Assembly (NCBI RefSeq): GCF_003254745.1
Contig: NZ_QKXH01000010.1
Location: forward strand, 62,001-126,000
Length of the DNA stretch: 64,000 bases
Direction: 5' to 3'
DNA from: Flavobacterium aquariorum
Lineage (GTDB): Bacteria; Bacteroidota; Bacteroidia; Flavobacteriales; Flavobacteriaceae
How positions within the stretch are numbered: the stretch's first letter is position 1; the number at the start of each line of letters is the position of its first letter. Of the stretch, positions 4,990 through 35,721 are shown piece by piece. The position numbers and the translations under genes were made by a program. The notes beneath the pieces were generated by a model. That model was not told where the DNA came from. It made no database searches and saw only the letters and a program-made list of their open reading frames with translations.

Positions 4990-4995
4990 AGAGTA

Positions 4996-10120: not shown

Positions 10121-10141
10121 TTAATGAATACTTTTAATCAA

Positions 10142-10888: not shown

Positions 10889-10897
10889 TATACACTT

Positions 10898-11605: not shown

Positions 11606-11665
11606 ATATAAAATTTATTCAAAGTTTTACTTTATACTTATTTTTTATTAAGACTGGAAATCTTT

Positions 11666-12508: not shown

Positions 12509-12557
12509 TATATCTATTTTATAGTAAATACTTTTATAAGTAATTTTATACTTTTAT

Positions 12558-13586: not shown

Positions 13587-13599
13587 AATAATAAGAAAA

Positions 13600-15779: not shown

Positions 15780-15783
15780 AAAA

Positions 15784-16881: not shown

Positions 16882-16888
16882 AAATAAA

Positions 16889-18313: not shown

Positions 18314-18318
18314 AAAAT

Positions 18319-19602: not shown

Positions 19603-19713
19603 GTATGTTTAAAATTTGATATTAAATTTTGTCATTTTTACTATTTTCAAAATTCCATATCAACTGCTCCAATTATAGCCTCAATTCAACCAATTTATTT
19701 TAAGTATTATAAG

Positions 19714-20385: not shown

Positions 20386-20413
20386 TTAATTTATTATTGC
20401 TGTCAAAAACTTT

Positions 20414-21445
20414 TTAATTGACATTCAATTTTTGCAAATTTATTTTGGCAATATAGATTGCAGTTCCTGTAGAACATTCATGTGAAGAATAATAGCTTAC
20501 CCATAAATAATCATCTTTAATAACCATTCCCGGATAAGAACAGTCTCCTCCGCTTTTAATTGTCAAAAGTCTTTTATACGTTTTAGTTACTATATCGAAC
20601 TGTCCTAACATGACCTGATTATTTTCTCTTCCTGAAATTATCATAAAATTATTTTTCGTAAATAGAAAATTAGGTCCCCCAAAATTTTGAATAGGAATTT
20701 CACTAGACCAGTCCCATTTGCCATTAAGGTCAAAAGTTCGTCCAATTAAAGCTGAGCCGTTATTTCTTCTTGCTAAAATAAAAAACTCCCCGTTGTTAGA
20801 AACTCTTAAAGTTGATTCGGTCGGCAAATTACTAATATCACTAAATGATTTAATGTTTTTAAAAAAGTTACCTTCATCACTTTGATATAAGTCGAATATT
20901 CCATTTCCATTATAACCAATGCTGTATGCTTTGCCATTGTACCAGGTAATTCGCCATGGCCAGGATTCATTTCCTGAAATTTTTGCAGTATTAAGTTTTA
21001 AATTGTCTAAAACGACATTTTTTAGATCACCCCATTGTCCCGAAGAAGAATATTTTGAATTATAATCAGTAAAAGAAGATATTTTTTTATTTTCATACTT
21101 AGAGCCATGGATATAAAGCATCAGTTTATCCTTGTTTATTGCAAATTTAGGGTCTCGTAAATCTGTCCCATCTACACTGAATTCTTTTGTAAAATTCCAA
21201 TTAAAGCCGTCTGGACTAACTAATAATTTAATCACGCCATCCTGACCATCAGCATGTCTATCTGATTCTCGAAATGCTAAAAAAAATTGATTATTAAAAT
21301 AAACTAAGTCTGTAAACGCTTGGTTTTTATCGCTTATATCGGTAACTCTTCGAATTAGAAGGTCATCATTATCATCTTCATCTTGAGAAGTACAAGAAGT
21401 ACAAAAAAGAAACCCGAAAATCAAACTTAGTAAAATTTTTTTCAT
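20414..21445 (-). CDS. Surface lipoprotein with sialidase-like beta-propeller features
   Basis: The 343-residue protein has a signal peptide ending in a lipobox-like CTSC with the lipidated Cys probably at 18. The following SQDEDDNDD is an acidic run resembling the Bacteroidota lipoprotein export signal for display on the outer surface. The mature part looks like a multi-bladed propeller: FFLAFRESDRHADG, LLVSPDGFNWNFTKEF, TDLRDPKFAINKDKLMLYIH and ESTLRVSNNGEFFILARR. The FRES and S-x-D-G-x-x-W blocks recall the BNR-type repeats of sialidases. It sits directly after pseI, which is unusual for a cell-surface protein. Catalytic activity is unproven. Confidence 0.6.
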   Translation of the reverse strand: MKKILLSLIFGFLFCTSCTSQDEDDNDDLLIRRVTDISDKNQAFTDLVYFNNQFFLAFRESDRHADGQDGVIKLLVSPDGFNWNFTKEFSVDGTDLRDPKFAINKDKLMLYIHGSKYENKKISSFTDYNSKYSSSGQWGDLKNVVLDNLKLNTAKISGNESWPWRITWYNGKAYSIGYNGNGIFDLYQSDEGNFFKNIKSFSDISNLPTESTLRVSNNGEFFILARRNNGSALIGRTFDLNGKWDWSSEIPIQNFGGPNFLFTKNNFMIISGRENNQVMLGQFDIVTKTYKRLLTIKSGGDCSYPGMVIKDDYLWVSYYSSHECSTGTAIYIAKINLQKLNVN

Positions 21446-21449
21446 AAAA

Positions 21450-22487
21450 TTAGTTTATATGGTCCCACTTTAATGCGTCTCCCTTTTCCAGATCAAAAGT
21501 AACTTTTTTACCTAGAATATCCTTAAAAAATTTTGGATGCATACCAAAACCAGGTCTGATAGATCTAACGTTTTCCTCTGTAATTACATCCCCTGCTTTT
21601 ATATCCTGAACAACATATAATGATCTGGAAAAATCTTTTCCCTGAGCTTGTTTTTCGGTTAATTTATAATCTATAACACCAATTGCACTTTCAGCCTCTC
21701 GAACAGCTTTTACCATTTCAGTAAATTCTTTTTCATTCATGGAAAAAGATGCATCAGGCCCTCCAATTGAACGATCTAAGATGAAATGTTTTTCTATCAT
21801 TTTTGCTCCTAAAACTGTAGCAACTATAGGAACTGTTGCTCCCATGGTATGATCTGACAAGCCACTGATTACATTATATCTTTGTTTCAAATCACTAATC
21901 ATCGCCATATTAGCCTCCTCAATGGGAGCAGGATAACTTGTGGTGCATTTTAATAAAACAATATCAAAATTGCCCATTCTTTTACAAGCATCCAAAGCCA
22001 ATTCTATATCTTCTTCTTCAGCTATACCAGTTGATATAATTACCGGCTTACCTTTTGAAGCAATATATTCTATTAATGGTATGTCTGTAATTTCTAAAGA
22101 TGCAATTTTATAAGCAGGCACATTTAAACCTTCTAATAAATCAACAGCCGTTTTATCAAATGGTGAAGAAAAACAAACGAGCCCCTCTTCTTTAGCTACT
22201 CTAAATAGTTCTTCATGCCAATCCCACGGAGTGTATGCTTCCTTGTATAATGCGTGTAAATTTTGCCCTTCCCATATTGTACCTTTAACAATAAAGTCTT
22301 CTTTTTCAGAATTTATAGTCATTGTATCTGCTGTATAAGTTTGTAATTTTATACAATCAGCTCCAGCTCTCTTAGCTGCTTTTATTGTTTCAATAGCAGT
22401 TTCAATACTACCATTATGATTGGCTGATAACTCTGCAATAATAAAAACAGGTGAATTATCATTGATATCTATATTACCGATTTTCAT
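21450..22487 (-). CDS. pseI: Pseudaminic acid synthase (NeuB family)
   Basis: PseI condenses the 2,4-diamido-2,4,6-trideoxyhexose released by PseG with phosphoenolpyruvate to form pseudaminic acid. It has 345 residues. The NeuB barrel is visible in FIIAELSANHNGS, ADCIKLQTYTADTMT, SPFDKTAVDLL, CTTSYPAP and SGLSDHTMG. IEKHFILDRSIGGPDASFSM is the form seen in PseI. A C-terminal antifreeze-like (SAF) domain contains SLYVVQDIKAGDVITEENVR and SIRPGFGMHPK. I prefer PseI over NeuB or LegI because pseB, C, F and G are upstream. It lies 8.3 kb from pseB instead of being contiguous. Confidence 0.93.
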   Translation of the reverse strand: MKIGNIDINDNSPVFIIAELSANHNGSIETAIETIKAAKRAGADCIKLQTYTADTMTINSEKEDFIVKGTIWEGQNLHALYKEAYTPWDWHEELFRVAKEEGLVCFSSPFDKTAVDLLEGLNVPAYKIASLEITDIPLIEYIASKGKPVIISTGIAEEEDIELALDACKRMGNFDIVLLKCTTSYPAPIEEANMAMISDLKQRYNVISGLSDHTMGATVPIVATVLGAKMIEKHFILDRSIGGPDASFSMNEKEFTEMVKAVREAESAIGVIDYKLTEKQAQGKDFSRSLYVVQDIKAGDVITEENVRSIRPGFGMHPKFFKDILGKKVTFDLEKGDALKWDHIN

Positions 22488-22490
22488 ATT

Positions 22491-23207
22491 TTAATTTATT
22501 GATCTGATTAAACAAAATGCCTCTGCAAAATAACTTCCTATTACAACACCCCATCTTTGAGCCTGAATTTTTAAGGCCTCTGGTGAACGAGGGTGTGGAT
22601 ATTTGCGGCGTTCAAATTCATAACTTTCCATTCCTTTAATCTTTGCATCAACATCTTCATCAGAAACACTAAAAAACAAGTTTGGCAGAAAATGTTTAGG
22701 ATCTGACGGAGATCGCCATTCCGTGCCTGAAGGCGTTTCAAAGGTTATTATTATTTTCACTTTTTCATCTTGCATTGGCCTGCAGGCTGTAATAACTGAT
22801 TCAAAAGTTCTTTGATGATCAATATTTACATCACCCCCGTGATGAGTAAAGATAACATCAGGATTAAATTGAGTTTTTTCTTTTTCAACAACTTTAACTA
22901 AATCTAACAAAGCAACCGAATCAAACCTATTATCCGGAAAATCATAAATACTTGTACTATGATAACCAATTGCTTTTTGTGCATTCTTGATATTTTCGCG
23001 GTGTGTTTTGAGTTGACTCTCCCACAATTGAACATCTCTGGTTTCAGAACGAGAAGTAATTCCCTCACCAAGAATTACAACATGTGTCTCAACATTATAT
23101 TCATTAATTAATTTATGAAATGTTGCTCCTAATCCTAATAATTCATCATCAGGATGTGCAACCACAATCATAATTTTTTTATTTTTTAAAGATTCTAACA
23201 TTGGCAT
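22491..23207 (-). CDS. PIG-L/LmbE family N-deacetylase
   Basis: PIG-L proteins remove acetyl groups from GlcNAc-type amines using zinc. The 238-residue protein has the motif VAHPDDELLGLG (16-27), with ligands His18 and Asp21 and the general base Asp20. The third ligand is His131 in HHGGDVNIDHQ. An ENIKNAQKAIG segment and PDNRFD complete the pattern. The start is ATG at 23207 or 23201. Either overlaps the formyltransferase-like gene by 23-29 bp, so the two are translationally linked. A deacetylase beside an acyl-group-transfer gene suggests exchange of an N-acetyl for another N-acyl group. Confidence 0.88.
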   Translation of the reverse strand: MPMLESLKNKKIMIVVAHPDDELLGLGATFHKLINEYNVETHVVILGEGITSRSETRDVQLWESQLKTHRENIKNAQKAIGYHSTSIYDFPDNRFDSVALLDLVKVVEKEKTQFNPDVIFTHHGGDVNIDHQRTFESVITACRPMQDEKVKIIITFETPSGTEWRSPSDPKHFLPNLFFSVSDEDVDAKIKGMESYEFERRKYPHPRSPEALKIQAQRWGVVIGSYFAEAFCLIRSIN

Positions 23208-23859
23208 CTATTATTTTTTTATTTGACTGAAAATTTGCATTCGTAAATTCTATTTTAAATTCAGACGTTTCTATAAAAGCATGCGGGTATCCTTCGCAAT
23301 CTAACATTCTTATGAAATCGTAAACTTTTTCTAAATCGGACAATACGGCTAAATTACCATCATCCGGCTTTCTTCTTTTAAACTCTGTAATTTCACCAGC
23401 CTGAGGAACAGGTGTAATATCCTCTTTAATAATTTTTCTGATCATTTGTTCAACAATTGAAACAGATCTCTCGAATATTTCTCTAGCCGTACCGTTTAAA
23501 CTAAGTTCTTCCTTCAGATAAATATCACCGGTATCAAGGCCTTGTTCCACCTTAATGGCAGAAATTTTTGTTTTTGTAAAACCTCTCTCTATTAAATTTT
23601 GCAAAGGACTTCCTCCTCTTCCAAAAGGCAAGTCAGTCATATGAAAAACTATACATTCATAATTTTCATAAATTTCACTAGGAATTATATATGACCAATG
23701 CGGAATAAAAATTTTTGTTGGATTAAAAGCCTTTAAAACATCTAGATTAAAATTATCCTTGGAATCTATTAATATCCAATTTCCACTATTATTTTCTCCT
23801 AAATTATTTAAAAGGCTTTTATGCCAGCTTTTTTCAGATAAGATTATGTATTTGTTCAT
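23179..23859 (-). CDS. Formyltransferase-fold protein acting on an amino sugar (predicted)
   Basis: The protein has 226 residues. The core matches the methionyl-tRNA/sugar formyltransferase fold that uses 10-formyl-tetrahydrofolate: the FHMTDLPFGRGGSPLQN loop at 72-88 and VEQGLDTGDIYL at 104-115, with His73 and Asp109 in the catalytic positions. In classical formyltransferases an Asn lies two residues before the His. Here that position is Val71, so catalysis may differ or rely on Asn88. The C-terminal part (about 165-226) is a short separate domain. The substrate is probably a nonulosonic-acid precursor, and the overlap with the deacetylase supports a paired role. Confidence 0.75.
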   Translation of the reverse strand: MNKYIILSEKSWHKSLLNNLGENNSGNWILIDSKDNFNLDVLKAFNPTKIFIPHWSYIIPSEIYENYECIVFHMTDLPFGRGGSPLQNLIERGFTKTKISAIKVEQGLDTGDIYLKEELSLNGTAREIFERSVSIVEQMIRKIIKEDITPVPQAGEITEFKRRKPDDGNLAVLSDLEKVYDFIRMLDCEGYPHAFIETSEFKIEFTNANFQSNKKIIDANVRIFKK

Positions 23860-23870
23860 AAAAATATTTA

Positions 23871-24818
23871 TTACTCAATGTATTCGCTAAATCCTTTATA
23901 TAATTTTTTACCAATTGAATTAGCAGAATAATTAGAAATTGGGATATTAAGTTTGTCTTCAATTGACCATTCCATATCTTTAAAACCAAACAAATGTCTA
24001 AAACGAATTGTGCTGGAAAATCTTGGATTAATTTCAAAAACAACAGGCCCTTTAGATGTTAATCGGAGTTGCACATTAATACTTCCAACCAAAGATAATT
24101 TTTCGGCAATTTTAAAAAGTAAATTATCAATTTCAGAGTTATCAACTACTTCACCATAACCAGTTTGACTTCCCATTAATTCTCTTTTAATTATAATTGT
24201 TCTAATAATTCCATTTTTGCTTCTAAATAATCCGCAAGTGTATTCACCATTATCACCATCTAAAAATTCCTGAACAATAAAATCAGGATTATTCCTTTTA
24301 AGAGAAAGAAAAGTATCAAAATCATGTACAATACTAACATCTGAACTTCCTGATCCTGTTCTGGATTTCAGAATTACTGGAAAATTTTTGAGTAAATCAA
24401 CTTTTTCTATTGACTCAGTAATTGGAAATGGAAGATTGTTAATTTTTAAAAAATTTGCTGTTTCTAATTTGTCAAATCCGATTTGAAGAGCTAAATCCGA
24501 TGCCAATATTAATTCTGCCTTATCTATTTTATTAATTTTTTCTTTAGAAAAAAATCGTAGTTCTGGTTCAGAAATTGGTATAATAAAATCGATGTCATTT
24601 TCTTTTACGAATTTTTCTAAACTATCAATGTAATTTAAATCATTATATTTTAGGCCTAAAAAAAAATTAGGATAAATAAATTTCGCCGCATTTTTATCTG
24701 ATATATCGCAACCATATAGGTTATGGACAAGACTATATTCATTAAGAATTTTACCAATGCTTTGTCCTATATCACCTCCACAACCAGTCACTAATATATT
24801 TAATTTGTCTTTAATCAT
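23871..24818 (-). CDS. ATP-grasp ligase (carbamoyl-phosphate-synthase-like)
   Basis: The 315-residue protein starts with a pre-ATP-grasp Rossmann-like unit, ILVTGCGGDIGQSIGKIL (8-25). The ATP-grasp fold follows: VILKSRTGSGSSDVSIV (148-164) with the nucleotide-binding Lys151, IVQEFLDGDNGEYTCG (181-196) with Glu184, and the metal site GPVVFEINPRFSST (257-270) with Glu262 and Asn264. Such enzymes join a carboxylate to an amine or thiol through an acyl-phosphate. Lying between a formyltransferase-like gene and a phosphoesterase in a pseudaminic-acid island, it may attach an unusual acyl or amino-acid group. The substrate is unknown. Confidence 0.8.
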   Translation of the reverse strand: MIKDKLNILVTGCGGDIGQSIGKILNEYSLVHNLYGCDISDKNAAKFIYPNFFLGLKYNDLNYIDSLEKFVKENDIDFIIPISEPELRFFSKEKINKIDKAELILASDLALQIGFDKLETANFLKINNLPFPITESIEKVDLLKNFPVILKSRTGSGSSDVSIVHDFDTFLSLKRNNPDFIVQEFLDGDNGEYTCGLFRSKNGIIRTIIIKRELMGSQTGYGEVVDNSEIDNLLFKIAEKLSLVGSINVQLRLTSKGPVVFEINPRFSSTIRFRHLFGFKDMEWSIEDKLNIPISNYSANSIGKKLYKGFSEYIE

Positions 24819-24857
24819 AAATTTTTAATTATTATTTTTATAATAGTATGACTACTA

Positions 24858-25553
24858 TTATCTTGTCAATATTTTTACCGAATAACCTGCCTTCATTTCT
24901 ATCGACTTAATTTCCTCGATTAATTTAGTTGTATCGTAAGAACTGATTTTTGTTTCGTAGCTTTTATTAGATGTATTAATTACTACCCAATATGCATTCC
25001 CGCCTTTTTGTCTTGATTGTCCAACAGATCCGCAATTAATTAAGGTAGTGTTTTTACATCTGTATGAAAATGCATAATGAGAATGACCAATTAGTACAAA
25101 ATCATGGTTTTCTGAATTACATCTTTCTAATTGTGATATTGGAGCATCTGGATAAATATATTCATCAATACTGGATGTACTTCCATGATTCAATTGAAAA
25201 GATACTTGATCGATAGTAATTGATTTCTGTTTTGGTAGAGAAAACAGCCTATTCAGTGTGTTTGAATCAAGGTTATTCAATGCATATTCATGCCCTCTTC
25301 CGTATTTTTCAATTAATAATTCTGAATCAATTTTATTTTCATATAAATCCTGTAAAATTACTTCATGATTGCCTTTAATCAGCTCATAATCCCACTCTGA
25401 AAGCATCTGTAAAACTTTTTCCGGATGGTAATAATAACCAACTATATCTCCTAAAACAAAAATTTTACTCACTCCTATTTCCCTGGCTTCTTTTAATACA
25501 CTTTCCAGAGCATAGTGATTACCATGTATATCCGAAATAACTGCTATTTTCAT
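24858..25553 (-). CDS. Calcineurin-like metallophosphoesterase (YfcE/MJ0936-like)
   Basis: The 231-residue protein has the dimetal motifs in order: SDIHGNH (7-13) with Asp8 and His10, VLGDIVGYYYHP with Asp36, KGNHEVIL with Asn62 and His63, LNHGSTS, and IGHSHYAF near 155-162. NCGSVGQSRQKG follows. It resembles small phosphodiesterases of the YfcE group. The PseI route releases no sugar phosphate that would need it, so its role here is open; it might cleave a nucleotide or phosphoester of an acyl donor. Its ATG overlaps the SDR stop as ATGA at 25550-25553. Confidence 0.85.
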   Translation of the reverse strand: MKIAVISDIHGNHYALESVLKEAREIGVSKIFVLGDIVGYYYHPEKVLQMLSEWDYELIKGNHEVILQDLYENKIDSELLIEKYGRGHEYALNNLDSNTLNRLFSLPKQKSITIDQVSFQLNHGSTSSIDEYIYPDAPISQLERCNSENHDFVLIGHSHYAFSYRCKNTTLINCGSVGQSRQKGGNAYWVVINTSNKSYETKISSYDTTKLIEEIKSIEMKAGYSVKILTR

Positions 25554-26236
25554 GAGTAAAAATTAATTGTATCAAATATTTTTTCAGCAGCTTCTTCCGG
25601 CTTTACAAGTTTATCTTCTTCTTTTAAGGAACTAAAATACTTATTTTCAGGAAATTCATTTTTCCTGATATCTAATTGCATTTTAGTATCAAGGACTCCC
25701 GGATCAACACTATACAACTTTAAGCTTTTATTATTTAAATTCTCCTCTTCTAAAACTTTAAAAAACATTTTCATGTATGCTTTTGAGGAGCAATATAAAG
25801 ACCAATATTCTATCGGATTATTTCCTGCTCCGGAAGTTACATTAATCAAAATAGTTTTATTATTGTAAAAATTAGACAGTAATTCATTAATAAAATTTAC
25901 GGGATAATTAATATTAATATTGATTGAGGAGTAAATTTCATTGTTTTTAAAATTACCAATTTTATTAATTGGTAAAATTACTCCCGCATTATTAAAATAA
26001 TAAATAATTGAATCTTGATTTATTTCCTTTTTTAATATTTCAATAACTGCTGTAGAAAATGGCTCAGATAAATCGGTCTTAATTAATAATAATTTATTAG
26101 AATCAATTTCTTTATGATCTTCGTGTAGTGATCTGGAAATAGAAATAATTCTCGAATTCTTATCATTTAATGCAAGATCCACAAACGACTTACCAAGACC
26201 TCTGTTTGTACCAGTGATAATTACTATTTTTTTCAA
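25550..26236 (-). CDS. Classical short-chain dehydrogenase/reductase
   Basis: The 228-residue classical SDR has the cofactor loop TGTNRGLGKSF (8-18), FNNAGVILPI (81-90), and the catalytic Ser135 with Y148-x3-K152 in LYCSSKAYM. It resembles sepiapterin- or benzil-reductase-like SDRs more than the extended sugar-nucleotide type, so a small acyl or keto substrate is as likely as a sugar. The only usable start is TTG at 26236, directly after an in-frame TAG. It is translationally coupled to the metallophosphoesterase. It could make the hydroxyacyl group that the ATP-grasp enzyme then attaches, which is speculation. Confidence 0.8.
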   Translation of the reverse strand: MKKIVIITGTNRGLGKSFVDLALNDKNSRIISISRSLHEDHKEIDSNKLLLIKTDLSEPFSTAVIEILKKEINQDSIIYYFNNAGVILPINKIGNFKNNEIYSSINININYPVNFINELLSNFYNNKTILINVTSGAGNNPIEYWSLYCSSKAYMKMFFKVLEEENLNNKSLKLYSVDPGVLDTKMQLDIRKNEFPENKYFSSLKEEDKLVKPEEAAEKIFDTINFYS

Positions 26237-26256
26237 CTATTCAAATCTTATTTTCA

Positions 26257-26913
26257 TTAGTACAAGGTAATTTTATCCTTGTGCTTAAATGGATTTCCAA
26301 TTACAAAACTCTCTTCTTTTATATCCTTTGTTAAACAAGTTCCTATAGCAATAGTACTATTCCTCCCTATTGTTATATTATTTGCAATTGTTGAGCTGGT
26401 ACCAATAAATGACAGCTCGCCAACATTTATAAAGCCACTTAAACATACACCGGGAGCAATATATGTACACTTACCAATATATGTATCATGAGCAACAATG
26501 GTTGAGTTTAGAATTATTGAACCATCTTCGATTACAACACCCTGATCTATATTACAAAGAGGATAAATAATAACACCCTTTCCTATTTTGGCATTTTTAC
26601 TTACATAAGCTGTTGGATGAATAAAGCTAAAAATGTTATATTGTTTTTCGATTAAATAGTTTAAGATATCATATTTTAAGTTTTTACTGAGATAACCTAA
26701 AGTTGGTATAAAATGTAATTGCTTAAAAGCTTCTAATTTAAAATCATTAAATTTATATCTTCTTTCATTGCCGGTGCCAATGAGATCATCAGCGAAAATA
26801 TAAATATTCTCTTCTTTATAATTGTTTTCTAGTAATGTATTATACAACTGTTTTCCAACGCTTCCAAAACCAATTAGACCTATTTTAATATCATCATAAC
26901 TCATAGAATACAT
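26257..26913 (-). CDS. PglD/NeuD-like sugar acyltransferase
   Basis: The 218-residue protein has an N-terminal Rossmann-like unit, IGLIGFGSVGKQL (10-22), followed by a left-handed beta-helix of hexapeptide repeats from about residue 100. Examples are SKNAKIGKGVIIYPL, IEDGSIILNSTIV and GELSFIGTSSTIANN. It ends with the KEESFVIGNPFKHK loop. This is the architecture of PglD, which N-acetylates UDP-4-amino sugars, and of NeuD. It follows pseG directly and overlaps it by 20 bp (ATG 26913) or 11 bp (ATG 26904). With no GNAT-type PseH visible, it is the best candidate for 4-N-acylation. Confidence 0.8.
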   Translation of the reverse strand: MYSMSYDDIKIGLIGFGSVGKQLYNTLLENNYKEENIYIFADDLIGTGNERRYKFNDFKLEAFKQLHFIPTLGYLSKNLKYDILNYLIEKQYNIFSFIHPTAYVSKNAKIGKGVIIYPLCNIDQGVVIEDGSIILNSTIVAHDTYIGKCTYIAPGVCLSGFINVGELSFIGTSSTIANNITIGRNSTIAIGTCLTKDIKEESFVIGNPFKHKDKITLY

Positions 26914-27874
26914 TTTTTAAATTCGCGTACTGTTGATAATTATATATCTTTTTTTGATTTTCTATTAGAAAGTCAGAAGACTTTACTTCCTCTATTTTTT
27001 CTTTAAATAAATCAAAATTGAGGTTTCTATAATCTCCAATTCCAATTGCCAAGTTATTATCAACAAAATAATTATAAGGTTGAATCTGGTTATCAGCAAA
27101 AAAACCTGTTATAATTTTGCTACCGATACAGGCTGTTTCATTCAATAAGCTACTTGCAGGAACAATATTTATATCTGAACTAGCTATCAACATTGCAACT
27201 TCATTAGCACTTATATTTTTATGAATTTTTAAATTTTTAAATTTTTCCAAGCTAGGATAAAACTTATAGGCATCTCCTATCAATAAATTAATTTCAGAAA
27301 AAGAATTTAGTTCAGATAAAAACCCTAAAACTTTTTCGGAAATATTAAAAAAATCGGCTCCCCCAAATGATAGGAATATTTTATTCGGAATTTTTTTTAT
27401 TTGCCTATATTCTCTATTAAAAAATTCTTCTCTTAATAAAGCATAATCAGTTCCTAAATATAATTTAGTATACTTTTCTTTTTTAAATGAATTAGGTGTA
27501 AAACCCGGTATATTATTAATTAATGCATCACAAATATAATTTTTATCATTATGATCATCTATATAAATTAATTTACATCCTTTACTTTTAATTTTTATTT
27601 GATATTCTGATTCAAAAAAGTAATTATCTAAAACAACAATATCATCTTTATCTAAATAATCGAGAAACTCGTTATAGTGATTATCATTATCACTAAGTTC
27701 GATTAAACTATTACAAATTTTATTAATTTCTTTTCGTTGATAATCTGTTGGTTTTTGGGTTGCATATACACAATTGAATTCTTTATTGATCAAGGCGGCA
27801 AGCCCTAAAGTTCTAACAAAGTGACCATATCCAATTTCTGAATTACCATCTGATCTAAAAATTACTCTCTTCAT
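26894..27874 (-). CDS. pseG: UDP-2,4-diamido-2,4,6-trideoxy-beta-L-altropyranose hydrolase
   Basis: PseG releases UDP from the diacylated altrose intermediate to give the free sugar for PseI. It is a GT-B-fold, MurG-like enzyme of 326 residues. It has the N-terminal motif RSDGNSEIGYGHFVR (7-21) with the catalytic His18, IDDHNDKNY near 125-133, FLSFGGADFFN near 177-187, and a late SSLLNETACIGSK region that binds the nucleotide. Its upstream neighbours are pseF, pseC and pseB. Several Pse loci encode PseG and PseH as a fusion or neighbours, but here no PseH domain is attached. Confidence 0.9.
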   Translation of the reverse strand: MKRVIFRSDGNSEIGYGHFVRTLGLAALINKEFNCVYATQKPTDYQRKEINKICNSLIELSDNDNHYNEFLDYLDKDDIVVLDNYFFESEYQIKIKSKGCKLIYIDDHNDKNYICDALINNIPGFTPNSFKKEKYTKLYLGTDYALLREEFFNREYRQIKKIPNKIFLSFGGADFFNISEKVLGFLSELNSFSEINLLIGDAYKFYPSLEKFKNLKIHKNISANEVAMLIASSDINIVPASSLLNETACIGSKIITGFFADNQIQPYNYFVDNNLAIGIGDYRNLNFDLFKEKIEEVKSSDFLIENQKKIYNYQQYANLKNVFYEL

Positions 27875-27923
27875 TGCAATTGATTGTGAATTAAGTGAAA
27901 AAATACACCACTACAGTTCATAT

Positions 27924-28619
27924 TTAGAGTTTATTCTTTTGTAAGAGCTCATACTTTAATTCAGCAATATTCCAATCAACTTCATTATCAATATCCTGAC
28001 CTTCCATTTCAGAAATTATTATACTTCCACTATTATTTGTTAATATTTTTTTATGCTTTAGGCATATATCGGTATTAAGCCAATAAAATTGTCCTGCGTC
28101 ATGATAACTTCTTTCCAAATCCTGAGATCTTGACAAACTAAATTCAGGATAAAAAAAATTGATTTTTTCACCTTCGAATTTTAAAGCCCTTTGAATAGGA
28201 AACCCGAAAGGAATAACTGGAAAAACGCTATCATATTCCTGTGTTTCTAAAATTTTCAAACTCTCTGAAAGTCTATCGGAAGTAACAAAAGGAGCACAGG
28301 CATATAAGCAACATATAAAATCAAAATTTCTATTAATAGCCTGATATTTTTCCACTACCTCTTCTATTACATCAAAAGTGGTGGCGAAGTCTGTAGAAGT
28401 TTTTTCTGTTCGAAAAAAAGGGACGGTTGCTCCGTATTTATTTGCTATTTCTGCAATTTCATAATCATCTGTTGATACCATTACTTCATCAAACAGACCA
28501 GAATTTATAGCAGCTTCTATGGAATAAGCAATTATAGGCTTTCCTAAAAAAGGTTTAATATTCTTTCTGGGGATTCGTTTACTTCCCCCACGTGCAGGAA
28601 TTATACAAAGATTAGACAT
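27924..28619 (-). CDS. pseF: CMP-pseudaminic acid cytidylyltransferase
   Basis: PseF activates pseudaminic acid with CTP to give CMP-Pse, the donor for transfer to the glycan. It has 231 residues. The CTP-binding start IIPARGGSKRIPRKNIK (6-22), KPIIAYSIEAA, VSTDDYEIAEIA, CLYACAPF, and DAGQFYWLN near the C-terminal third match the PseF/NeuA family. It overlaps the pseC stop region by 8 bp (28612-28619), indicating co-translation. The presence of pseF means a CMP-linked donor is made, so a CMP-sugar transferase should exist in the locus. Confidence 0.94.
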   Translation of the reverse strand: MSNLCIIPARGGSKRIPRKNIKPFLGKPIIAYSIEAAINSGLFDEVMVSTDDYEIAEIANKYGATVPFFRTEKTSTDFATTFDVIEEVVEKYQAINRNFDFICCLYACAPFVTSDRLSESLKILETQEYDSVFPVIPFGFPIQRALKFEGEKINFFYPEFSLSRSQDLERSYHDAGQFYWLNTDICLKHKKILTNNSGSIIISEMEGQDIDNEVDWNIAELKYELLQKNKL

Positions 28620-29766
28620 TTAAGAATTCCAAAGTTTTTTTAATAACAAATTCTTGTTCTTCAATTGTCAACGTAGGATACATTGGCAGACTAATACATC
28701 TTGAATAATATTTTTCTGAATTACTCAAATCTGTCCCATTGTTGTATCCAATATTTTTATAATAAGGTAATTGATGCACTGGAATGTAATGAATTTGTGC
28801 ATAAATCTTATTGGCATGCAAATAATCATACAGACCCTTGCGATCTTCGACTTCTATAATAAAAAGATGATGTGCATTCAAAAAGTTATCCGGCAAAACC
28901 TGAAACTTAAATTTTCCTTCAAAAGCATCTTTATATTGTTGCGCAATTTCATTTCTTTTAGCAACTCCTTTTTCATTTCTGGCTAATTGCGATATACCTA
29001 ATGCTGCTTGAAAATCTGTGATTCTATAATTAAAACCTAATGTCTGCATTTCATAGAACCATCCTCCGTGATTCTCAGTCATATTTTCTTTTGTTATCCC
29101 ATGGGATCGCAACAACAATAATTTTTTGTAAACCTCTTCAGAATTAGTAGTTACCATTCCTCCTTCGCCGCAAGCAATATGTTTCACAGGATGAAATGAA
29201 AAAACCGCTGCATCAGCGTATACCCCATTACCACAAAATTGTTTCTGTTCTTTAGAATCTATAAAAAATCCTCCAGGCGCATGACAAGCATCTTCTACAA
29301 TCCAAAGATTATGCTCATTTGCCAAAGCTCTAAATGCCTCTAAATCGACAGGAAGTCCCGCAAAATCAACAGGAATAATACCTTTAAAAAAACCTTTCGG
29401 CTTACTTTCTATCAATTCTCTTGTTTTATCGAGGGATAATAAATAAGTGTCCCTATCAATATCAGCAAACCATACTTCAGCCCCTACAAAACGTGCACAA
29501 TTTGCAGATGCGGCAAATGTTATGGGAGTAGTAATTATTCTATCGCCTTTTTCTAATCCCATAGCCATAACGGCAAGGTGCAAACCAGCTGTAGCATTAT
29601 TCACAGCTACTGCATATTTAGCCTCAACATATTCTGCAAAATTTTGCTCAAATTCAGCTATCTTGGGACCTTGTGTTAAATAATCAGATTGAAGTGTATC
29701 AATTACAGCTTGAATATCTTCTGCTGTAATATCTTGCCTTCCATAAGGAATTACTTTTTTATCCAT
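28612..29766 (-). CDS. pseC: UDP-4-amino-4,6-dideoxy-L-AltNAc transaminase
   Basis: PseC is a pyridoxal-phosphate aminotransferase that converts the 4-keto product of PseB to the 4-amino sugar. It has 384 residues of the DegT/DnrJ/EryC1 family. It shows QGPKIAEFE (32-40), ATAGLHLA (58-65), VEDACHAPGG (157-166) with the PLP-ring aspartate, and the Schiff-base Lys195 in FSFHPVKHIACGEGG. GFNYRITDFQAALG follows. Its ATG shares one base with the pseB stop codon. Confidence 0.96.
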   Translation of the reverse strand: MDKKVIPYGRQDITAEDIQAVIDTLQSDYLTQGPKIAEFEQNFAEYVEAKYAVAVNNATAGLHLAVMAMGLEKGDRIITTPITFAASANCARFVGAEVWFADIDRDTYLLSLDKTRELIESKPKGFFKGIIPVDFAGLPVDLEAFRALANEHNLWIVEDACHAPGGFFIDSKEQKQFCGNGVYADAAVFSFHPVKHIACGEGGMVTTNSEEVYKKLLLLRSHGITKENMTENHGGWFYEMQTLGFNYRITDFQAALGISQLARNEKGVAKRNEIAQQYKDAFEGKFKFQVLPDNFLNAHHLFIIEVEDRKGLYDYLHANKIYAQIHYIPVHQLPYYKNIGYNNGTDLSNSEKYYSRCISLPMYPTLTIEEQEFVIKKTLEFLNV

Positions 29767-30776
29767 TATACTTCAAAATTAGTATCTACATGTTCTTTTA
29801 TCAAACTTCTCAATGTATCTACTGTTTCCCAGTCTTCATTAGATCCAGAGTTATAATTAAATCCTTCTTCGACTTTTACAGCGTTAAAATGATTTAAAAA
29901 CTCCTCTAATTTAAAATTAGGCACAGAAGGTAGAATAGTATAATACTTCCCTAAATCATATGTATAAAATGAATCTGATGCAGTAATCATCTCTTCATGT
30001 ATTTTTTCACCTGGTCTAATTCCCACCACCTCAATTGGACATTGTGGCGCTACAGCTTGTGCAACATCTGTAATTTTGTAAGAAGGTATTTTTGGTATAA
30101 AAATTTCGCCTCCCCAAGCATGCTCCATTGCATGCATTACCATATCTACTCCTCCTTGAAGTGATATATTAAAACGTGTCATTGAAACATCGGTTATGGG
30201 CAACTTCCCTTCTTTCTTTTTATTAATAAAAAAAGGAATTACAGAACCATTAGATCCCATAACATTTCCGTATCGAACTACTGAAAATTTAATTGGATTA
30301 AATCCTTTAATATTATTTGCGGCAACAAACAATTTATCTGATGTCAATTTAGTAGCTCCATACAAATTAATAGGAGCACAGGCCTTATCCGTAGAAAGTG
30401 CAACGACCCCTTGCACGTTGGTCTGTAAAGCAGCGTGAATTACATTTTGGGCACCTCCAATATTGGTTTTTATGCATTCATCAGGGTTGTATTCCGCCAA
30501 GTGAACATGCTTCATCGCTGCAGCGTGAATCACATAATCAACTCCTTGAAATGCCCTGACCAATCTGGCTTCATCTCGAACATCTCCAAGTAAAAAACGA
30601 ATTTGGGGATATTTGCTTTGAGGATATTCCTGAGCCATTTGGAATTGCTTTTGCTCATCTCTTGACAAAATAATCAATTTCCTGATTCCAGGAAACTTCT
30701 TTAAAATATGAGAAGTCAGTGCTTTTCCCAAAGACCCTGTTCCTCCTGTAATCAAAATTGCTTTATTGTCTAACAT
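29766..30776 (-). CDS. pseB: UDP-GlcNAc 4,6-dehydratase (5-inverting)
   Basis: PseB carries out the first step to pseudaminic acid: dehydration of UDP-GlcNAc with inversion at C5. It has 336 residues, is soluble, and lacks the membrane domain seen in the WbpM-like protein at 1-1253. It has ITGGTGSLGKAL (9-20), AAAMKHVHLAEYNPDECIK (85-103), the catalytic STDKA with Asp130 and Lys131, and Y139-x3-K143 in LYGATK. These correspond exactly to the triad of the FlaA1/PseB group. It opens the Pse island and follows a 305-bp non-coding gap after the Wzz-like gene. Confidence 0.96.
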   Translation of the reverse strand: MLDNKAILITGGTGSLGKALTSHILKKFPGIRKLIILSRDEQKQFQMAQEYPQSKYPQIRFLLGDVRDEARLVRAFQGVDYVIHAAAMKHVHLAEYNPDECIKTNIGGAQNVIHAALQTNVQGVVALSTDKACAPINLYGATKLTSDKLFVAANNIKGFNPIKFSVVRYGNVMGSNGSVIPFFINKKKEGKLPITDVSMTRFNISLQGGVDMVMHAMEHAWGGEIFIPKIPSYKITDVAQAVAPQCPIEVVGIRPGEKIHEEMITASDSFYTYDLGKYYTILPSVPNFKLEEFLNHFNAVKVEEGFNYNSGSNEDWETVDTLRSLIKEHVDTNFEV

Positions 30777-31081
30777 TTTCTAATAATGTATTATTTTAAA
30801 CTCTATTTTTTATTAACTGTCTCACTTGAATATTCAAAGGTTAAAACTTTTGAACGACAAATCCTTGCTCTTATTCATTTATTCATTATACTAAATCCAA
30901 TTTCCTGCTCTCTGTAGTGTCAGGCAAGTACAAAATTTTAGTTTAGAAAATATTGAAGCTATAGTGAACTTCAAATTCTTTACTATCTTCACTCTGGTTT
31001 CAATACAGTTTAAAACTTAAAAATTCTTAGCTTTTTTTTTTGCAAACTTTGCGATTAAAACCATTTAAATCTTAAACAATC
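30777..31081. other. 305-bp spacer between the Wzz-like gene and pseB
   Basis: I see no open reading frame, RNA gene or clear terminator. A box AACCTTTG (minus strand, 30835-30842) is one base from the TAnnTTTG consensus, but no -33 element stands at the normal distance. This may be a secondary promoter region for the Pse island. Confidence 0.4.
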
Positions 31082-32176
31082 TTAGGCTTGTAGTTCCCTC
31101 AATAACCGCTTCACTATCAAAAATAATATAGCTAAAAATCCAGCTAAAAATCCACCCAACACCAATCCTTTAGCTTTCCCAAAACGCTCTTTAGGCAACG
31201 GCAAAATAGGACGATCAATCACTTGTATCAATGGAGTTTCTTTTCGTAAGGTTACTTTCGCTAATTCGGTTTGTTTAACCAATTCGGTTAAGATAGCAGT
31301 ATTAGCCTGAACATCCACCTGCCGGCGAGCTGATGGAGTACGACGTACATTGAGCGCAGGATTCAACATGAAAGTATTATCCGTAGCCACAGCTACACCC
31401 GTGATGGCACTATTCAATTCTGCACGTATAGAATCGGTTTGTCGTTTCAGAATTTCCATATTCATACGAGCTTTTTTACTTTTCGTATCAACATAAAAAC
31501 GCCCTACTTGTCTTGCTAATGCTTCGCAAAAATAAAGTGAAAACAATTCATCGGTAGAAGTCACATCCATTGATATAATGGAAATTTTTTTATCTTTCTG
31601 GGCAACAGACAAAGAACTTTTAGACAAATTCCGGTACATTACACCCAATATACTGTCATGAACTCTTGTAAAATACTTGCGTTTGGTTTCAGGCAAAAAT
31701 TGGATGTTCTTAAATTTCGGATTTTTGTTCCAACTGTCTCTCCATTCATTATTTTGAATGTACATTTCAGCCAAAGAAATTACTTTCCCATTTACTGTTA
31801 CAGGTGATAATAACGTTTGCTCTACCATAGTACGGGATTTAAATAACTCAGTAAGGTTAGATCCTGTAAAAATACTCCCACCACCACCACCTAGATCCAA
31901 TCCAAGTGTACTAGCTAAACCCAAGGCACTGCCTAATCCTCCTCCTCCTTTTTCATCCTCTAATGCAAAAGACAAAGTAGCTGTATAAACTGGTTTTTTG
32001 ATAAAAGAATAAGTCACTCCCAGGGTAGCTCCAATTACACCCGCCAATACAATGATTCTCCATTGGGATAGCAAATAAACATACCATTCTTTTCCTTTTT
32101 CTATCAGTTCTTTTAAAGATATTTCGTCATTAGGTATTTCTTCTTTCATATTTGCGCTATCGTTTTTAGAATCCAT
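31082..32176 (-). CDS. wzz: Wzz/GumC-type chain-length determinant without kinase domain
   Basis: This 364-residue inner-membrane co-polymerase regulates chain length and assembly. Its first membrane segment is WRIIVLAGVIGATLGVTYSF near 39-58, followed by KKPVYTATLSFALEDEKGGGG. The second segment, GLVLGGFLAGFLAILFLIV, is near 337-355. Between them is a periplasmic domain with coiled-coil-like stretches. There are unusual glycine-rich runs around residues 77-102. It lacks the Walker motifs of the Wzc-like protein at 41761-44211. It directly follows the SLBB outer-membrane export protein gene, so the two probably form one export complex. Confidence 0.88.
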   Translation of the reverse strand: MDSKNDSANMKEEIPNDEISLKELIEKGKEWYVYLLSQWRIIVLAGVIGATLGVTYSFIKKPVYTATLSFALEDEKGGGGLGSALGLASTLGLDLGGGGGSIFTGSNLTELFKSRTMVEQTLLSPVTVNGKVISLAEMYIQNNEWRDSWNKNPKFKNIQFLPETKRKYFTRVHDSILGVMYRNLSKSSLSVAQKDKKISIISMDVTSTDELFSLYFCEALARQVGRFYVDTKSKKARMNMEILKRQTDSIRAELNSAITGVAVATDNTFMLNPALNVRRTPSARRQVDVQANTAILTELVKQTELAKVTLRKETPLIQVIDRPILPLPKERFGKAKGLVLGGFLAGFLAILFLIVKRLLRELQA

Positions 32177-32358: not shown

Positions 32359-34884
32359 CTACTTAAAAGCTGTAACCATAAGTGTTGCCAAACTTGTCAT
32401 TATGGCGCCAATACTTACCCATTCACCTGTTGTCATTTTCCTAGTCAATGGTTTCTCCGGCACTACAATTTGAGAGCCTGGTAATACTTTTGGATAGGTT
32501 CTAAAAACCAAAAATACAGGATTCGAAACTGCTGCTTTCCCATTTGGATAAATGACATAGGCTTTTTTCTTCCATCCTCTGGCATCCAATCCACCGACTG
32601 CATCCAAATAATAATTAAAACCTCTCCCCTTTGTATAAGGGATCTCAGAAGTCAAAAGTACATTTCCTGTAATTTTTACACTTTCATTATAAGTAGCCAC
32701 TTCAATCTCATCGTCTGGCAAAAGCGTTACATTAGTATTGTTGGCTGGATTTTTAATAATTTTTTTCCAATCAACTGGAATTGTGGCATATTTCTTTTCT
32801 TCCAATAATTTTTTAGCCAATTTATTTTGAATTGTATCTGATTTTACCCCTGAACCATTATTTTTTTCACCATCCTTTATTTTTTCGCCCTCAACATCTT
32901 CGATTTTGGAGCTTACATTCATGCTCACATTTTCCAAATCTTCAATTTGTTTGCCTTTTATAGGCCTTTTAATTTTTACTCCATCCAAATCGGCTACAGA
33001 AGTTAACCCTCCTGCTCTTTGAATGACATCGTAAATTTTTTCTTTTTTATTGGCCAAGACATATTTTCCGGTATATGCAACTGCTCCTGTGATTTTTACC
33101 ATTTCTGGTTTTTCGAACACGGCCATTCTTCTGACATTAATTACATCATATGGCTCTAATGCAAAGTTTTTAATTTGCTCATTGGAGTCAGCGTTGATTT
33201 CAAGATTAAACAATGTCGATCGGTTGGGATCATTATCATTAATAGTCTCCGACTTAATCATACGCGCAATCTCAACACGTTTGGACGCAGAACCCTTTAA
33301 TCCTCCGGCTTCAATCAGCAAATCATTCAAAGTCAAGCGATCATGATAATCATAAATGCCAGGTGTTTTAACCTCCCCGTCTATCGTTATCTTATATTCT
33401 TCCCTAAAATCCAAAATAGAATAAACAGTTACCTTATCTTCCTTGAGTAACGCAATATCAGCTTCACTATCCCCGGACAAAGCCTTTTCTAAATTAACAT
33501 TGACAACTTCGGTGGTCAAATCAGACTTCAAACGCACAATTACAGCTCTCTTTTTATAGGCATCTTCTTTTAGTCCTTCTGCTTGTCGAATCAAATCGGA
33601 TATTCTCATTCCTTCATAAAAAGAATAAGTATCTGGTCTAAAAACGGCTCCTTCGATAATAATACGGTTTTCAAATCGGTTTAAAATTTTGGAAACACGA
33701 TACACATCACCATTCAAGGGTATATAACTGCCATATTGCGCAGCTTGTATATCGGCTACTTTAAATTCTTTTCCTGTTTTTTGCAAAACATTAACCGATG
33801 CCGTATAAGCAAATTCATTGAATCCTGAAGCAAAATTTAATACGTCAGAAAAACGCTCACCTTTTTTTATCTCAAATATACCCGGACGTTTTACTTCCCC
33901 TTCAAGGGTTACCCTATCTGTATAAGCCGGAATCCGAATGACATCATTATCCTTTAGACCTACATTATCCGATTGATTTCCTGAAACTAAAAAACGATAT
34001 ATATCAATATTTTTTAAAACCTTATTGTTTCGGATCAGCTCTATGTTTCTATAACTTCCATTTTTTCCGGGTCCTCCACCTAAAAACAGAGCGTTATATA
34101 CTGTTGCCAAGGACGAAATAGAATAATTTCCAGGTTGTCTGCTGCCAATAATGGTTACTTTAATCGTTCGAATACGACTTAAACTTATACTAACTTGAGA
34201 TTGTCCGGAACGAACTGTACTATAGATTCGGGCGATAGCTCCCTTTATTTTTTGGGTCGCGGCTTCAATAGTCATTCCCGACACTGAAATTTGTCCTACA
34301 TATTGAATATTGACTTTTCCCTCTACAGTTACAGGCACATTATCATCAAACTCTTGAACACCGTTTACACTCACTTGCAATTCATCTCCAGGTCCTAAAA
34401 CATAATTTACGGGCGTGGCCAATTTCAAATTAGGTTGAAAATTCAATGTGGGATTATCAAATAACTCCGATCCAAAAACAAGTGAATTCAAACTGTCTTT
34501 TACTTTTTCGTTTTCGAATTTTTCTTGCTTTCGTTCGGTATCGTCACTATCGTCCTGTTCGTCTTCCGACTCTGTATCTTTTGTTTTCTTTTTGGTCTTT
34601 TTTTTGTCTGCCGTAGCTTTTGGTCCTTCCGGGAGAGCCAAACGTTTTTTCAATTTGGCAAATTCTGTAGCACTCATTCCTTTTGATAGCGCCATGGATT
34701 CCGCTTGATCTATGGAAACATTATTGCTTTGCAATTGCGATTTTATCTTTGCTATGTCTCCGTCGGATAAATAATCTACTCTTACATTGCTTAAGTCATT
34801 CCCTTTTAAAATATCCTGAGCCATCAAAGTGGTAGATTGAAAAAGTGCTACAAAAAGGACAACTGCTGTAATTATTTTTTTCAT
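32359..34884 (-). CDS. SLBB-domain outer-membrane polysaccharide export protein (Wza-like, large form)
   Basis: This is an 841-residue envelope protein with a cleavable signal peptide (residues 1-22, MKKIITAVVLFVALF followed by a Gln-Ala region). A highly charged linker at about 92-135, rich in Lys then Asp/Glu, comes next. The poly-export domain begins at about 155 with VNYVLGPGDELQVSVNG. Several SLBB repeats follow, of the form VTLEGEVKRPGIFEIKKGE, IIIEGAVFRPDTYSFYEGM and ITIDGEVKTPGIYDYHDRL. The C-terminus ends with a hydrophobic stretch near 820-838. It forms the outer-membrane portal for the polymer, paired with the Wzz-like protein. Confidence 0.92.
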   Translation of the reverse strand: MKKIITAVVLFVALFQSTTLMAQDILKGNDLSNVRVDYLSDGDIAKIKSQLQSNNVSIDQAESMALSKGMSATEFAKLKKRLALPEGPKATADKKKTKKKTKDTESEDEQDDSDDTERKQEKFENEKVKDSLNSLVFGSELFDNPTLNFQPNLKLATPVNYVLGPGDELQVSVNGVQEFDDNVPVTVEGKVNIQYVGQISVSGMTIEAATQKIKGAIARIYSTVRSGQSQVSISLSRIRTIKVTIIGSRQPGNYSISSLATVYNALFLGGGPGKNGSYRNIELIRNNKVLKNIDIYRFLVSGNQSDNVGLKDNDVIRIPAYTDRVTLEGEVKRPGIFEIKKGERFSDVLNFASGFNEFAYTASVNVLQKTGKEFKVADIQAAQYGSYIPLNGDVYRVSKILNRFENRIIIEGAVFRPDTYSFYEGMRISDLIRQAEGLKEDAYKKRAVIVRLKSDLTTEVVNVNLEKALSGDSEADIALLKEDKVTVYSILDFREEYKITIDGEVKTPGIYDYHDRLTLNDLLIEAGGLKGSASKRVEIARMIKSETINDNDPNRSTLFNLEINADSNEQIKNFALEPYDVINVRRMAVFEKPEMVKITGAVAYTGKYVLANKKEKIYDVIQRAGGLTSVADLDGVKIKRPIKGKQIEDLENVSMNVSSKIEDVEGEKIKDGEKNNGSGVKSDTIQNKLAKKLLEEKKYATIPVDWKKIIKNPANNTNVTLLPDDEIEVATYNESVKITGNVLLTSEIPYTKGRGFNYYLDAVGGLDARGWKKKAYVIYPNGKAAVSNPVFLVFRTYPKVLPGSQIVVPEKPLTRKMTTGEWVSIGAIMTSLATLMVTAFK

Positions 34885-35256
34885 ATATAAATACTATTTT
34901 GGATATTATAACTTAAAATTTAATGTTTTTAAAGCAATTATTTCGTAATTTACTTTTGCAACTTATTTAATGAGATTGCTATACACAACTCACAACCCAT
35001 TTTTCACCCTTTTACACGGCTCCGCCTCAGTGAGTCCCAATTTGGTTCACCGATTTTTAAGAATTTGCAAATTTATACTAAAAAAAAGGATTTTGCCCTC
35101 CTTTTACTGCGTTGATTTGGTGTTTTTATTTCAAAAATTTAATTAAAAACTAAAAACAGCACAAATAACTGATCACCAAATAATTAAAAACAACAATCAC
35201 TTTTTTATACTTTACTCTGTTGGGTGTGATTATACTTTGTATAAAAAACAATCATT
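34885..35256. other. 372-bp leader between the UpxY-like gene and the SLBB export gene
   Basis: No gene is visible. Read on the minus strand, the segment carries an intrinsic terminator (35076-35105) directly followed by a TAAATTTG -7-like box (35068-35075). The short repeat ACAACTCACAACCCAT lies nearer the SLBB gene (34985-35000). This is where an antiterminator encoded just upstream would be expected to act. Confidence 0.55.
35076..35105 (-). terminator. Intrinsic terminator in the capsule-operon leader
   Basis: On the minus strand AAAAGGA (35105-35099) pairs with TCCTTTT (35090-35084) around an 8-nt loop, followed by a run of T. It stands after the UpxY/NusG-like gene and before at least 30 genes on the same strand. 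It would stop the operon unless transcription is made resistant. Confidence 0.65.
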
Positions 35257-35721
35257 TTATTTTATTTTCACTTTAAGAATACATCCCAAAGACTCCAAAA
35301 CGAGTACATAGTGATTGTGTTTTACTTTCTGTACAATGGCCGACTGTGCCATAAATGGTCCGGATTCCAATACAATTTTATCTCCTTTTTGCCATTTGTC
35401 TACCATAACTTCAAAAGTATCTGGCACATCTAACCAATTTTGAATAGCCTCAATTTCTTTCTCTTTTACAATGGCTGGCTTTCCCAGCCAAAATAAATAG
35501 CGTATGGCACCTGTAACTTCAAAAATGACATTCCGATCCTTTTCATTGACTTGAACAAAAATATAGGAATTAAACAACGGCACCTGTATTTTCTTTTTAC
35601 GATCTGACCATTGACGTTCTTTGGTTATCAAAGGGCAATAGGCTTTAATCCCAATCTCATTCAACCGTTCCGCAACTTTCTTTTCCCACTTGGGCTTGGT
35701 ATAAACTACGTACCAGTTCAT
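35257..35721 (-). CDS. NusG-family transcription antiterminator (UpxY/RfaH-like)
   Basis: This 154-residue NusG paralogue has the N-terminal NGN domain: MNWYVVYTKPKWEKKVAERL (1-20) and AYCPLITKERQWSDRKKK. VPLFNSYIFVQVNEKDR and IRYLFWLGKPAIV complete it. A short KOW-like C-terminus contains WQKGDKIVLESGPF. This size and look match the UpxY proteins of Bacteroides capsule operons and RfaH, which load onto RNA polymerase in the leader and prevent early termination. A leader terminator lies just downstream. It is distinct from housekeeping NusG, which is not in the window. Confidence 0.88.
   Translation of the reverse strand: MNWYVVYTKPKWEKKVAERLNEIGIKAYCPLITKERQWSDRKKKIQVPLFNSYIFVQVNEKDRNVIFEVTGAIRYLFWLGKPAIVKEKEIEAIQNWLDVPDTFEVMVDKWQKGDKIVLESGPFMAQSAIVQKVKHNHYVLVLESLGCILKVKIK

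Follow-up and report, generated by a model that had tools for sequence, protein, structure and literature searches.

The stretch of Flavobacterium aquariorum DNA analysed here (64,000 nucleotides, hereafter the window; positions 62,001 to 126,000 of contig NZ_QKXH01000010.1 in assembly GCF_003254745.1, or C27:62001-126000 of a 4.38 Mb genome, G000, in our numbering) carries a surface-polysaccharide locus on its minus strand. The genes run in the order RecR, Wza-like, Wzc-like, epimerase, two nucleotide-sugar dehydrogenases, RmlB (dTDP-glucose dehydratase) and a NusG paralogue, upxY, which follows rfbB at a spacing of 60 nucleotides; beyond a gap of 372 nucleotides come an SLBB/Poly_export gene, Wzz, PseB, PseC and more genes, all on the same strand. 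The original prediction had spoken of more than 30 kb of same-strand genes after the paralogue, and we find 32 kb, reaching to about 2.3 kb in the window, with many glycan genes among them (PseB and PseC score above their NCBIfam cut-offs). The 372-nucleotide gap, the leader of this downstream operon, is our subject: it holds a hairpin with a T-run, a promoter box and, at 35015-35053 (minus strand), a composite conserved element that is probably the loading site of the UpxY protein (Table 1).

The paralogue is of the UpxY type, as had been predicted: its 154-amino-acid open reading frame (ORF) scores 135.6 bits against NF033644 (UpxY; cut-off 100), and PF02357 (NGN) matches residues 1-93 with 66.2 bits. 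It stays below the cut-offs of the RfaH model TIGR01955 (72.1 vs 144.5 bits), the LoaP model (43.8 vs 125 bits) and the NusG model, and it is encoded beside surface-polysaccharide genes, as the UpxY family is defined. The closest named match, from Flavobacterium laiguense, is 86% identical. A PF02357 search of the whole genome yields two NusG-family genes, upxY and one on contig C30 that is taken to be the housekeeping NusG. An AlphaFold2 model from 37 sequences (mean predicted local distance difference test 83.1, predicted template modelling score 0.59) gives an NGN domain and a beta-rich, KOW-type C-terminal domain joined by a linker of uncertain course; the domain search listed no separate KOW family match, and the C-terminal domain is all-beta in the model. 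Foldseek matches the model to RfaH and NusG, with the N-terminal part superposing on RfaH 8pen_P over 97 columns at 2.0 Å. Forty-seven columns are invariant among the 37 UpxY sequences, including K9, which aligns by sequence with RfaH K10.

The element came to light because the leaders of relatives share a conserved block. In the window it comprises a stem-loop and then GGCGGAGCCGTG (consensus of relatives GGCGNAGCCGTG), and it begins 14 bases after the promoter box. The stem-loop (stretch 35026-35056) folds at −9.4 kcal/mol, with 3 of 200 shuffles as good, and 72 segments upstream of the motif, folded singly, have a mean z of −2.29 (below −1 in 60 of the 72). An initial pattern occurred within 1.7 kb downstream of upxY at 65 of 105 loci (control: 18 matches per 1.75 million strand-bases), a count that is circular in so far as the pattern was drawn from the same loci; a looser pattern occurred at 72 of the 105. 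A covariance model, R1, was built from 19 distinct rows (L032 entered twice; L038, L056 and L081, three of 22 geometry matches, left out) and, when run on 80 named UpxY loci, finds the element in 69 at E ≤ 1 and in 60 at E ≤ 0.01. All 69 matches lie downstream of upxY on the same strand, and the first gene after them encodes TviB in 50, SLBB in 11 and other proteins in 8. The motif GCGNAGC is invariant in all 69 (N is A in 59, T in 7, G in 3 and never C), though the invariance in this alignment (A3) is partly selection by a model rich in GCGNAGC, N and the flanks being free. With model R2 the window element scores 25.4 bits, at E 0.0046 over the searched loci. Rfam gave no credible match in this leader or in 14 related loci, the 15 hits at a loose threshold each lying far below the gathering score. 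A further model match in the same contig, at C27:33851, and the other weak matches in the window were judged spurious.

The stem is supported by covariation, counted on model-based alignments because loop lengths differ and a MAFFT alignment was unsuited to pair counts; the named loci and the seed set have species in common, and alignments A3 and A5 were fitted to the structure. Across the 69 sites (65 distinct), 88.7% of cells pair, against 27-44% when the partner is slid, and two-sided changes number 88 against 25.4 in shuffled alignments. In an alignment of 32 sites outside the R2 seed, which are distant sites or come from other genera, pairing reaches 86.7% and the covariation score 0.410, against 0.185 shuffled. 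The outer pair of the GCGNAGC mini-hairpin likewise changes on both sides (G-C 49, C-G 6, U-A 2, A-U 1). The consensus pause has the register G-11 G-10 ... G-2 Y-1 G+1, and about 13 nucleotides is near the distance from the RNA end that is typical of pause hairpins. A T three bases past GCGNAGC is invariant (69/69); taking it as −1 places a G at −10 (the first G of GCGNAGC) in 69 of 69 sites, at −11 in 52, at −2 in 57 and at +1 in 58, and the stem ends about 13 nucleotides before the presumed RNA end. As far as sequence can tell, the element has the register of ops and the consensus pause. The oligonucleotide d(GCGNAGC) is reported to have special stability in DNA; in DNA folding of 9-mers, energy does not separate GNA loops from GCA.

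Upstream of the element lies TAAATTTG, which fits TAnnTTTG, the flavobacterial sigma-A −7 box. Start mapping in F. psychrophilum puts this box at −12 to −5 (PMC9723704), and this placement predicts a start near 35063. The box was sought in 70 leaders (the 69 named loci with the element plus the window) and found within 75 nucleotides upstream of the element in 67, against 9.3 (standard deviation 3.0, maximum 16) in 30 shuffles, with a box-to-element spacing of 11-20 nucleotides in 63. From upxY to 2051, same-strand ORFs of 100 amino acids or more leave 25 gaps, and of these only this leader and the last gap, 2051-2286, contain TAnnTTTG, the last gap having two; 27 further copies lie inside genes (2287-35256). 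Sigma-70 hexamer matches were discarded as promoter evidence, 16 being found where 15.0 were expected.

The element is linked to UpxY. Ninety-one of 150 Flavobacterium genomes have a UpxY above the cut-off, and the element (E ≤ 0.01) is present in 58, of which 56 belong to the 91 with UpxY and 2 to the 59 without (Fisher 3e-14, a guide only, the species being related). Of the two exceptions, the site in G143 looks spurious, lacking GCGNAGC, and that in G064 lies beside Wza/Wzc in a genome where NusG is likewise not found, so that its UpxY may have been lost from the assembly. Fifty of 69 Flavobacterium sites have a UpxY gene on the same strand no more than 2.6 kb upstream of them. A scan of 149 genomes of the family gave matches in 13; 9 of the 13 sites outside Flavobacterium have a neighbour within 1.5 kb that scores as UpxY (all nine tested pass the cut-off, at 103.6-144.4 bits), and at these nine the element is always on the same strand, before upxY in five and after it in four. 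Thirty UpxY loci come from outside the family. Eight are of the same class, and five of these (L265, L267, L270, L272, L280) have a like motif (TGnGACT...GCGAAGC) near upxY; of the 22 from other classes, one (L279) has it in part. R2 recovers only L270, L267 and, weakly, L280. At the level of the phylum 17 of 198 genomes match, at least four of these being probable coding matches (L233, L237, L241 and L243, which we reject). One genome, G213, has four model matches (L238, L244, L245, L246); at L244 a stem and AAGCGAAGCTCTG stand beside acaggtaaaacccctg..., with a near-repeat in L245, perhaps a mobile repeat with an element-like hairpin.

A different version of the element accompanies a different clade of UpxY. 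Eleven UpxY genes (L085, L087, L089, L091-L095, L098, L105, L106), 55-60% identical to that of the window, form one clade together with L061 (support 100/98). They face their cluster on the opposite strand, with a homologue of the window epimerase among the three nearest genes in 8 of 11, and the cluster-side leader carries GGGGNACCC in all eleven (N is A in 10 and T in 1), 99-376 nucleotides before the first ORF. The layout is that of a stem (such as GAGTAGTTA...TAACTATTC), AC or AT, and then GGGGNACCC, a pattern that did not turn up at any of the 94 remaining UpxY genes; on the tree of 105 UpxY proteins a single change suffices for each element type. Proteins with the first type have W38, S52 and K15 (window residues) in 72 of 72 and P82 in 69 of 72, whereas those with the second have R at W38 in 9 of 11, H at S52 in 9, H at P82 in all 11 and R at K15 in 9. 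These four positions are candidates for specificity.

Nineteen sites are not beside upxY, and 14 of them precede glycan-like genes. Five of these precede a cytidylyltransferase cluster (the first ORF, of 141 amino acids, is CTP_transf_like in 4 of 5, where called; at L211 only its start is visible, and the CTP_transf_3 gene of the cluster was found), four precede genes resembling the epimerase and GDP-mannose-dehydratase-like genes of the window, and the others precede genes for SLBB, Wza/Wzc, a Wzt-like ABC protein (two sites) and a flippase. The remaining five are the spurious G143 site, G070 (2.8 kb downstream of upxY), L212, L214 and L215, the next gene at the last three encoding an ABC ATPase, an iron-sulfur flavin reductase and a Polysacc_synt protein below cut-off, respectively. 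In the genome of the window, R2 ranks a site on contig C45 first (L224, G000:C45:483756-483797, plus strand; 28.9 bits, E 0.003), the window leader second (25.4 bits, E 0.02) and a third at 17.3 bits. The C45 site lies about 40 nucleotides before a Polysacc_synt_3 (Wzx-type flippase) gene followed by glycosyltransferases, and is a possible target of the window UpxY. With one UpxY gene and two sites in the genome, action in trans on distant operons is plausible.

We consider it likely, at a probability of about 0.74, that upxY encodes a UpxY-family elongation factor and that the leader following it is its loading site, in the style of RfaH at ops. RNA polymerase would start at the −7 box and make a leader of about 50 nucleotides, and the nascent RNA would fold into the stem-loop as the polymerase reaches GGCGGAGCCGTG. 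There the exposed non-template strand would form a hairpin of three base pairs with a GNA loop and the polymerase would pause; UpxY would read the non-template strand, and perhaps the upstream duplex, and bind the clamp. We infer that it would then travel with the polymerase, suppressing pausing and termination over the roughly 32 kb that hold the export, Pse and other glycan genes, and that distant glycan operons with the element are probably served by it as well. Control of the glycan operon, including the Pse genes, had been tentatively assigned to this leader in the original prediction, in which neither the −7 box nor the conserved element figured; a UpxY role at the leader of the pse operon is indeed likely, but the hairpin as its checkpoint is not retained, for reasons given below.

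The strongest signal in the element is an RNA-type covarying stem, and in many named loci the element lies within 60 nucleotides of the first start codon. Both would suit an RNA-level leader that acts on the first gene through some other factor, by way of stability, translation or attenuation, with upxY linked to it only via glycan clusters, as would the G064 site beside Wza/Wzc with no UpxY match, though NusG is equally missing there. Such a leader would hardly be expected to track UpxY across genomes despite differing first genes, to precede or follow upxY, to come in a different version with a different UpxY clade, or to share the register of the consensus pause, and we regard this alternative as unlikely.

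The hairpin with T-run on which the original prediction was built is present on the expected strand and was described there as clear; it is real but weak, and conserved at most among the closest relatives. It reads AAAAGGA-GGGCAAAA-TCCTTTT plus the T-run, with two G-C pairs, and folds at −6.4 kcal/mol (z −1.67; 17 of 200 shuffles equally stable). A generic terminator scan, which needs three G-C pairs, listed none on the minus strand (its 2 hits compare with 2.0 by chance). Among 67 leaders aligned on the promoter box, a terminator-like hairpin (at least two G-C pairs and a T-run) stands at the same place in two (that of the window and that of L124, the nearest relative), where shuffled leaders give 1.1; T-run hairpins with fewer G-C pairs are visible in L065, L070, L083 and L097. 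The close relative L065 also has fifteen tandem AATAAAG 7-mers between upxY and the promoter.

In the original prediction this hairpin was a stop for transcription that comes from upstream or begins ahead of it, and UpxY would carry the polymerase past it to the export and Pse genes. The strand is right, the short rfbB-upxY spacing could let transcription run on into the leader, and the UpxY proteins of Bacteroides keep polymerase from terminating in leaders (PMC7819879). The conserved box, however, follows the hairpin, starting 4 bases past its T-run with the predicted start downstream, and because an RNA begun at that box would exclude the hairpin, the hairpin is probably not the checkpoint or switch; at most it ends the upxY transcript. 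Its lack of conservation, its ready equalling by shuffles and the lack of a credible loading element upstream of it in the window also count against UpxY-dependent read-through at this hairpin, to which we give little credence. A strong promoter directly downstream of the hairpin had been named beforehand as the observation that would speak against such a stop, and the −7 box, as a predicted promoter without a TTG at −33, comes close to it. Finally, element and promoter might work together with the housekeeping NusG or simply form a regulatory pause, with UpxY aimed at another target or a relic. This would accommodate the 22 of 105 UpxY genes without a recognised element but is very improbable, as NusG is universal yet the element tracks UpxY, and UpxY is itself well conserved (47 columns are invariant across 37 sequences).

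Several observations weigh against UpxY loading at this leader or against parts of the mechanism. The window promoter has no TTG at the usual −33 spacing, so that an activator or an unusual upstream promoter part is possible, and in a sub-group of loci (e.g. L048, L049, L054, L064, L076) the element lies about 50 nucleotides past upxY with no box between. The window element itself is weak with R1 (15.9 bits, E 1.49 in the genome) and only moderate with R2 (25.4 bits, E 0.02). Pairs with a two-sided change do not exceed the shuffled level in number, either in the 69 sites (9 of 12, against 7.4) or in the 32 non-seed sites (7 against 6.3), and the RNA stem may act at the RNA level without any DNA mini-hairpin. 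Neither version of the element was found by regular expression near 22 of the 105 UpxY genes. In 10 of the 11 GGGGNACCC leaders TAnnTTTG is absent within 130 nucleotides upstream, and these leaders lack G-2 and G+1 of the pause. In the sequence alignment, the RfaH residues of the ops pocket other than that matching K9 have no evident counterpart in UpxY, which is consistent with a different DNA motif.

The UpxY proteins of Bacteroides reportedly act as antiterminators of capsule operons (Chatzidaki-Livanis, 2009, is named for this), and they are said to recognise the paused polymerase through non-template DNA, with RNA hairpins helping (Saba, 2024, in Nat Commun 15:10862). PMC12691694 cites Saba 2024 for an upstream-duplex contact, and the controlled leaders of Bacteroides lie upstream of upxY (PMC7819879). 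The present protein belongs to the same NCBIfam subfamily, a membership that holds for the protein only, and is likewise a NusG paralogue beside its target in glycan operons; here, in contrast, the element and its own promoter lie downstream of upxY, which is not the first gene, one flavobacterial UpxY seems to serve more than one operon, and another clade has another version of the element. A search for UpxZ (PF06603) found it in 0 of 198 genomes, with controls equally silent.

The ops site matches the consensus pause (PMC7819879), and in the RfaH-ops crystal the non-template strand forms a hairpin in which C3:G8 closes the loop G4-A7 (PMC5995543). The flavobacterial element resembles ops in register, in a predicted non-template mini-hairpin closed by C:G and in its occurrence at distant operons, and UpxY resembles RfaH in its N-terminal fold. 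Unlike ops, GCGNAGC would have a loop of 3 nucleotides (GNA) rather than 4, and a covarying stem precedes it; unlike RfaH, UpxY has a beta rather than all-alpha C-terminal domain in the model and scores below the TIGR01955 cut-off. The JUMPstart family also contains ops. It is a stem-loop in the 5′ leader of polysaccharide operons (RF01707; PMC2864571). The combination of stem-loop and ops in such leaders is shared, but JUMPstart is gammaproteobacterial and RF01707 has no match in this leader or the 14 related loci. LoaP of Bacillota, too, is a specialised NusG paralogue acting at a leader hairpin (PMC12691694), but our protein reaches only 43.8 of 125 bits with its model. Our literature search (UpxY, NusG or ops with Flavobacterium or Bacteroid, largely over titles and abstract starts, with most subscription papers outside it) found no description of the element. 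To our knowledge, UpxY-type recruitment has been worked out only for Bacteroides. The recruitment of NusG paralogues encoded within their target operons, e.g. UpxY, was called unknown in 2020 (PMC7593976).

More tentatively, Flavobacteria and related Bacteroidota may have an ops system of their own, in which UpxY proteins would read non-template DNA hairpins with GNA loops, GCGNAGC and GGGGNACCC being orthogonal codes in one cell, each behind an RNA stem that assists the pause, and one or two UpxYs would direct distant glycan operons in trans. We place this slightly short of even odds because the GGGGNACCC leaders mostly lack the −7 box and the full pause register. For dozens of flavobacterial species the element gives a sharply defined candidate for the loading site, in natural pairs of paralogue and element whose specificity is testable by swaps of a few bases, and it offers a prediction of the glycan operons under one factor. 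It also cautions that the nearest hairpin with a T-run need not be a regulated terminator.

Table 1. Features of the upxY leader and its downstream operon (window positions).
Feature	Position	Strand	Evidence
upxY, UpxY-family NusG paralogue, 154 amino acids	35257..35721	-	NF033644 135.6 bits, PF02357, AlphaFold2 model
Hairpin and T-run AAAAGGAGGGCAAAATCCTTTTTTTT, before the promoter; might weakly terminate the upxY transcript	35080..35105	-	fold −6.4 kcal/mol
Sigma-A −7 box TAAATTTG (TAnnTTTG in Bacteroidota), with a start predicted near 35063	35068..35075	-	motif and spacing
Conserved leader stem-loop UCGGUGAACCAAAUUGGGACUCACUGA	35027..35053	-	fold, and covariation in relatives
Ops-like pause motif GGCGGAGCCGTG, GCGNAGC mini-hairpin; proposed UpxY loading site	35015..35026	-	model R2 and register
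SLBB/Poly_export polysaccharide export protein, 841 amino acids; first gene of downstream operon	32359..34884	-	Pfam SLBB, SLBB_2, Poly_export
Further same-strand genes, proposed to be served by the leader	2287..32176	-	ORFs and profile matches; co-transcription assumed
Wzz	31082-32176	-	
PseB	29766-30776	-	
PseC	28612-29766	-	
GDP-mannose-dehydratase-like	8033-9145	-	
Epimerase	7005-7937	-	

Three further observations concern the window and its relatives. First, between the two nucleotide-sugar dehydrogenase genes lie 1,010 nucleotides (38278-39287) with no ORF of at least 100 amino acids and with three TAnnTTTG boxes. Second, the sole Rfam match at gathering level in the window is an S4-Flavobacteria ribosomal-protein leader (RF03141, 55668-55700, minus strand, 52.5 bits). 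Third, a contig labelled as a Klebsiella pneumoniae metagenome-assembled genome (L125, CALPPA020000076.1) carries a flavobacterial upxY (77% identity), the leader element and an SLBB gene, and is probably mislabelled or a contaminant.
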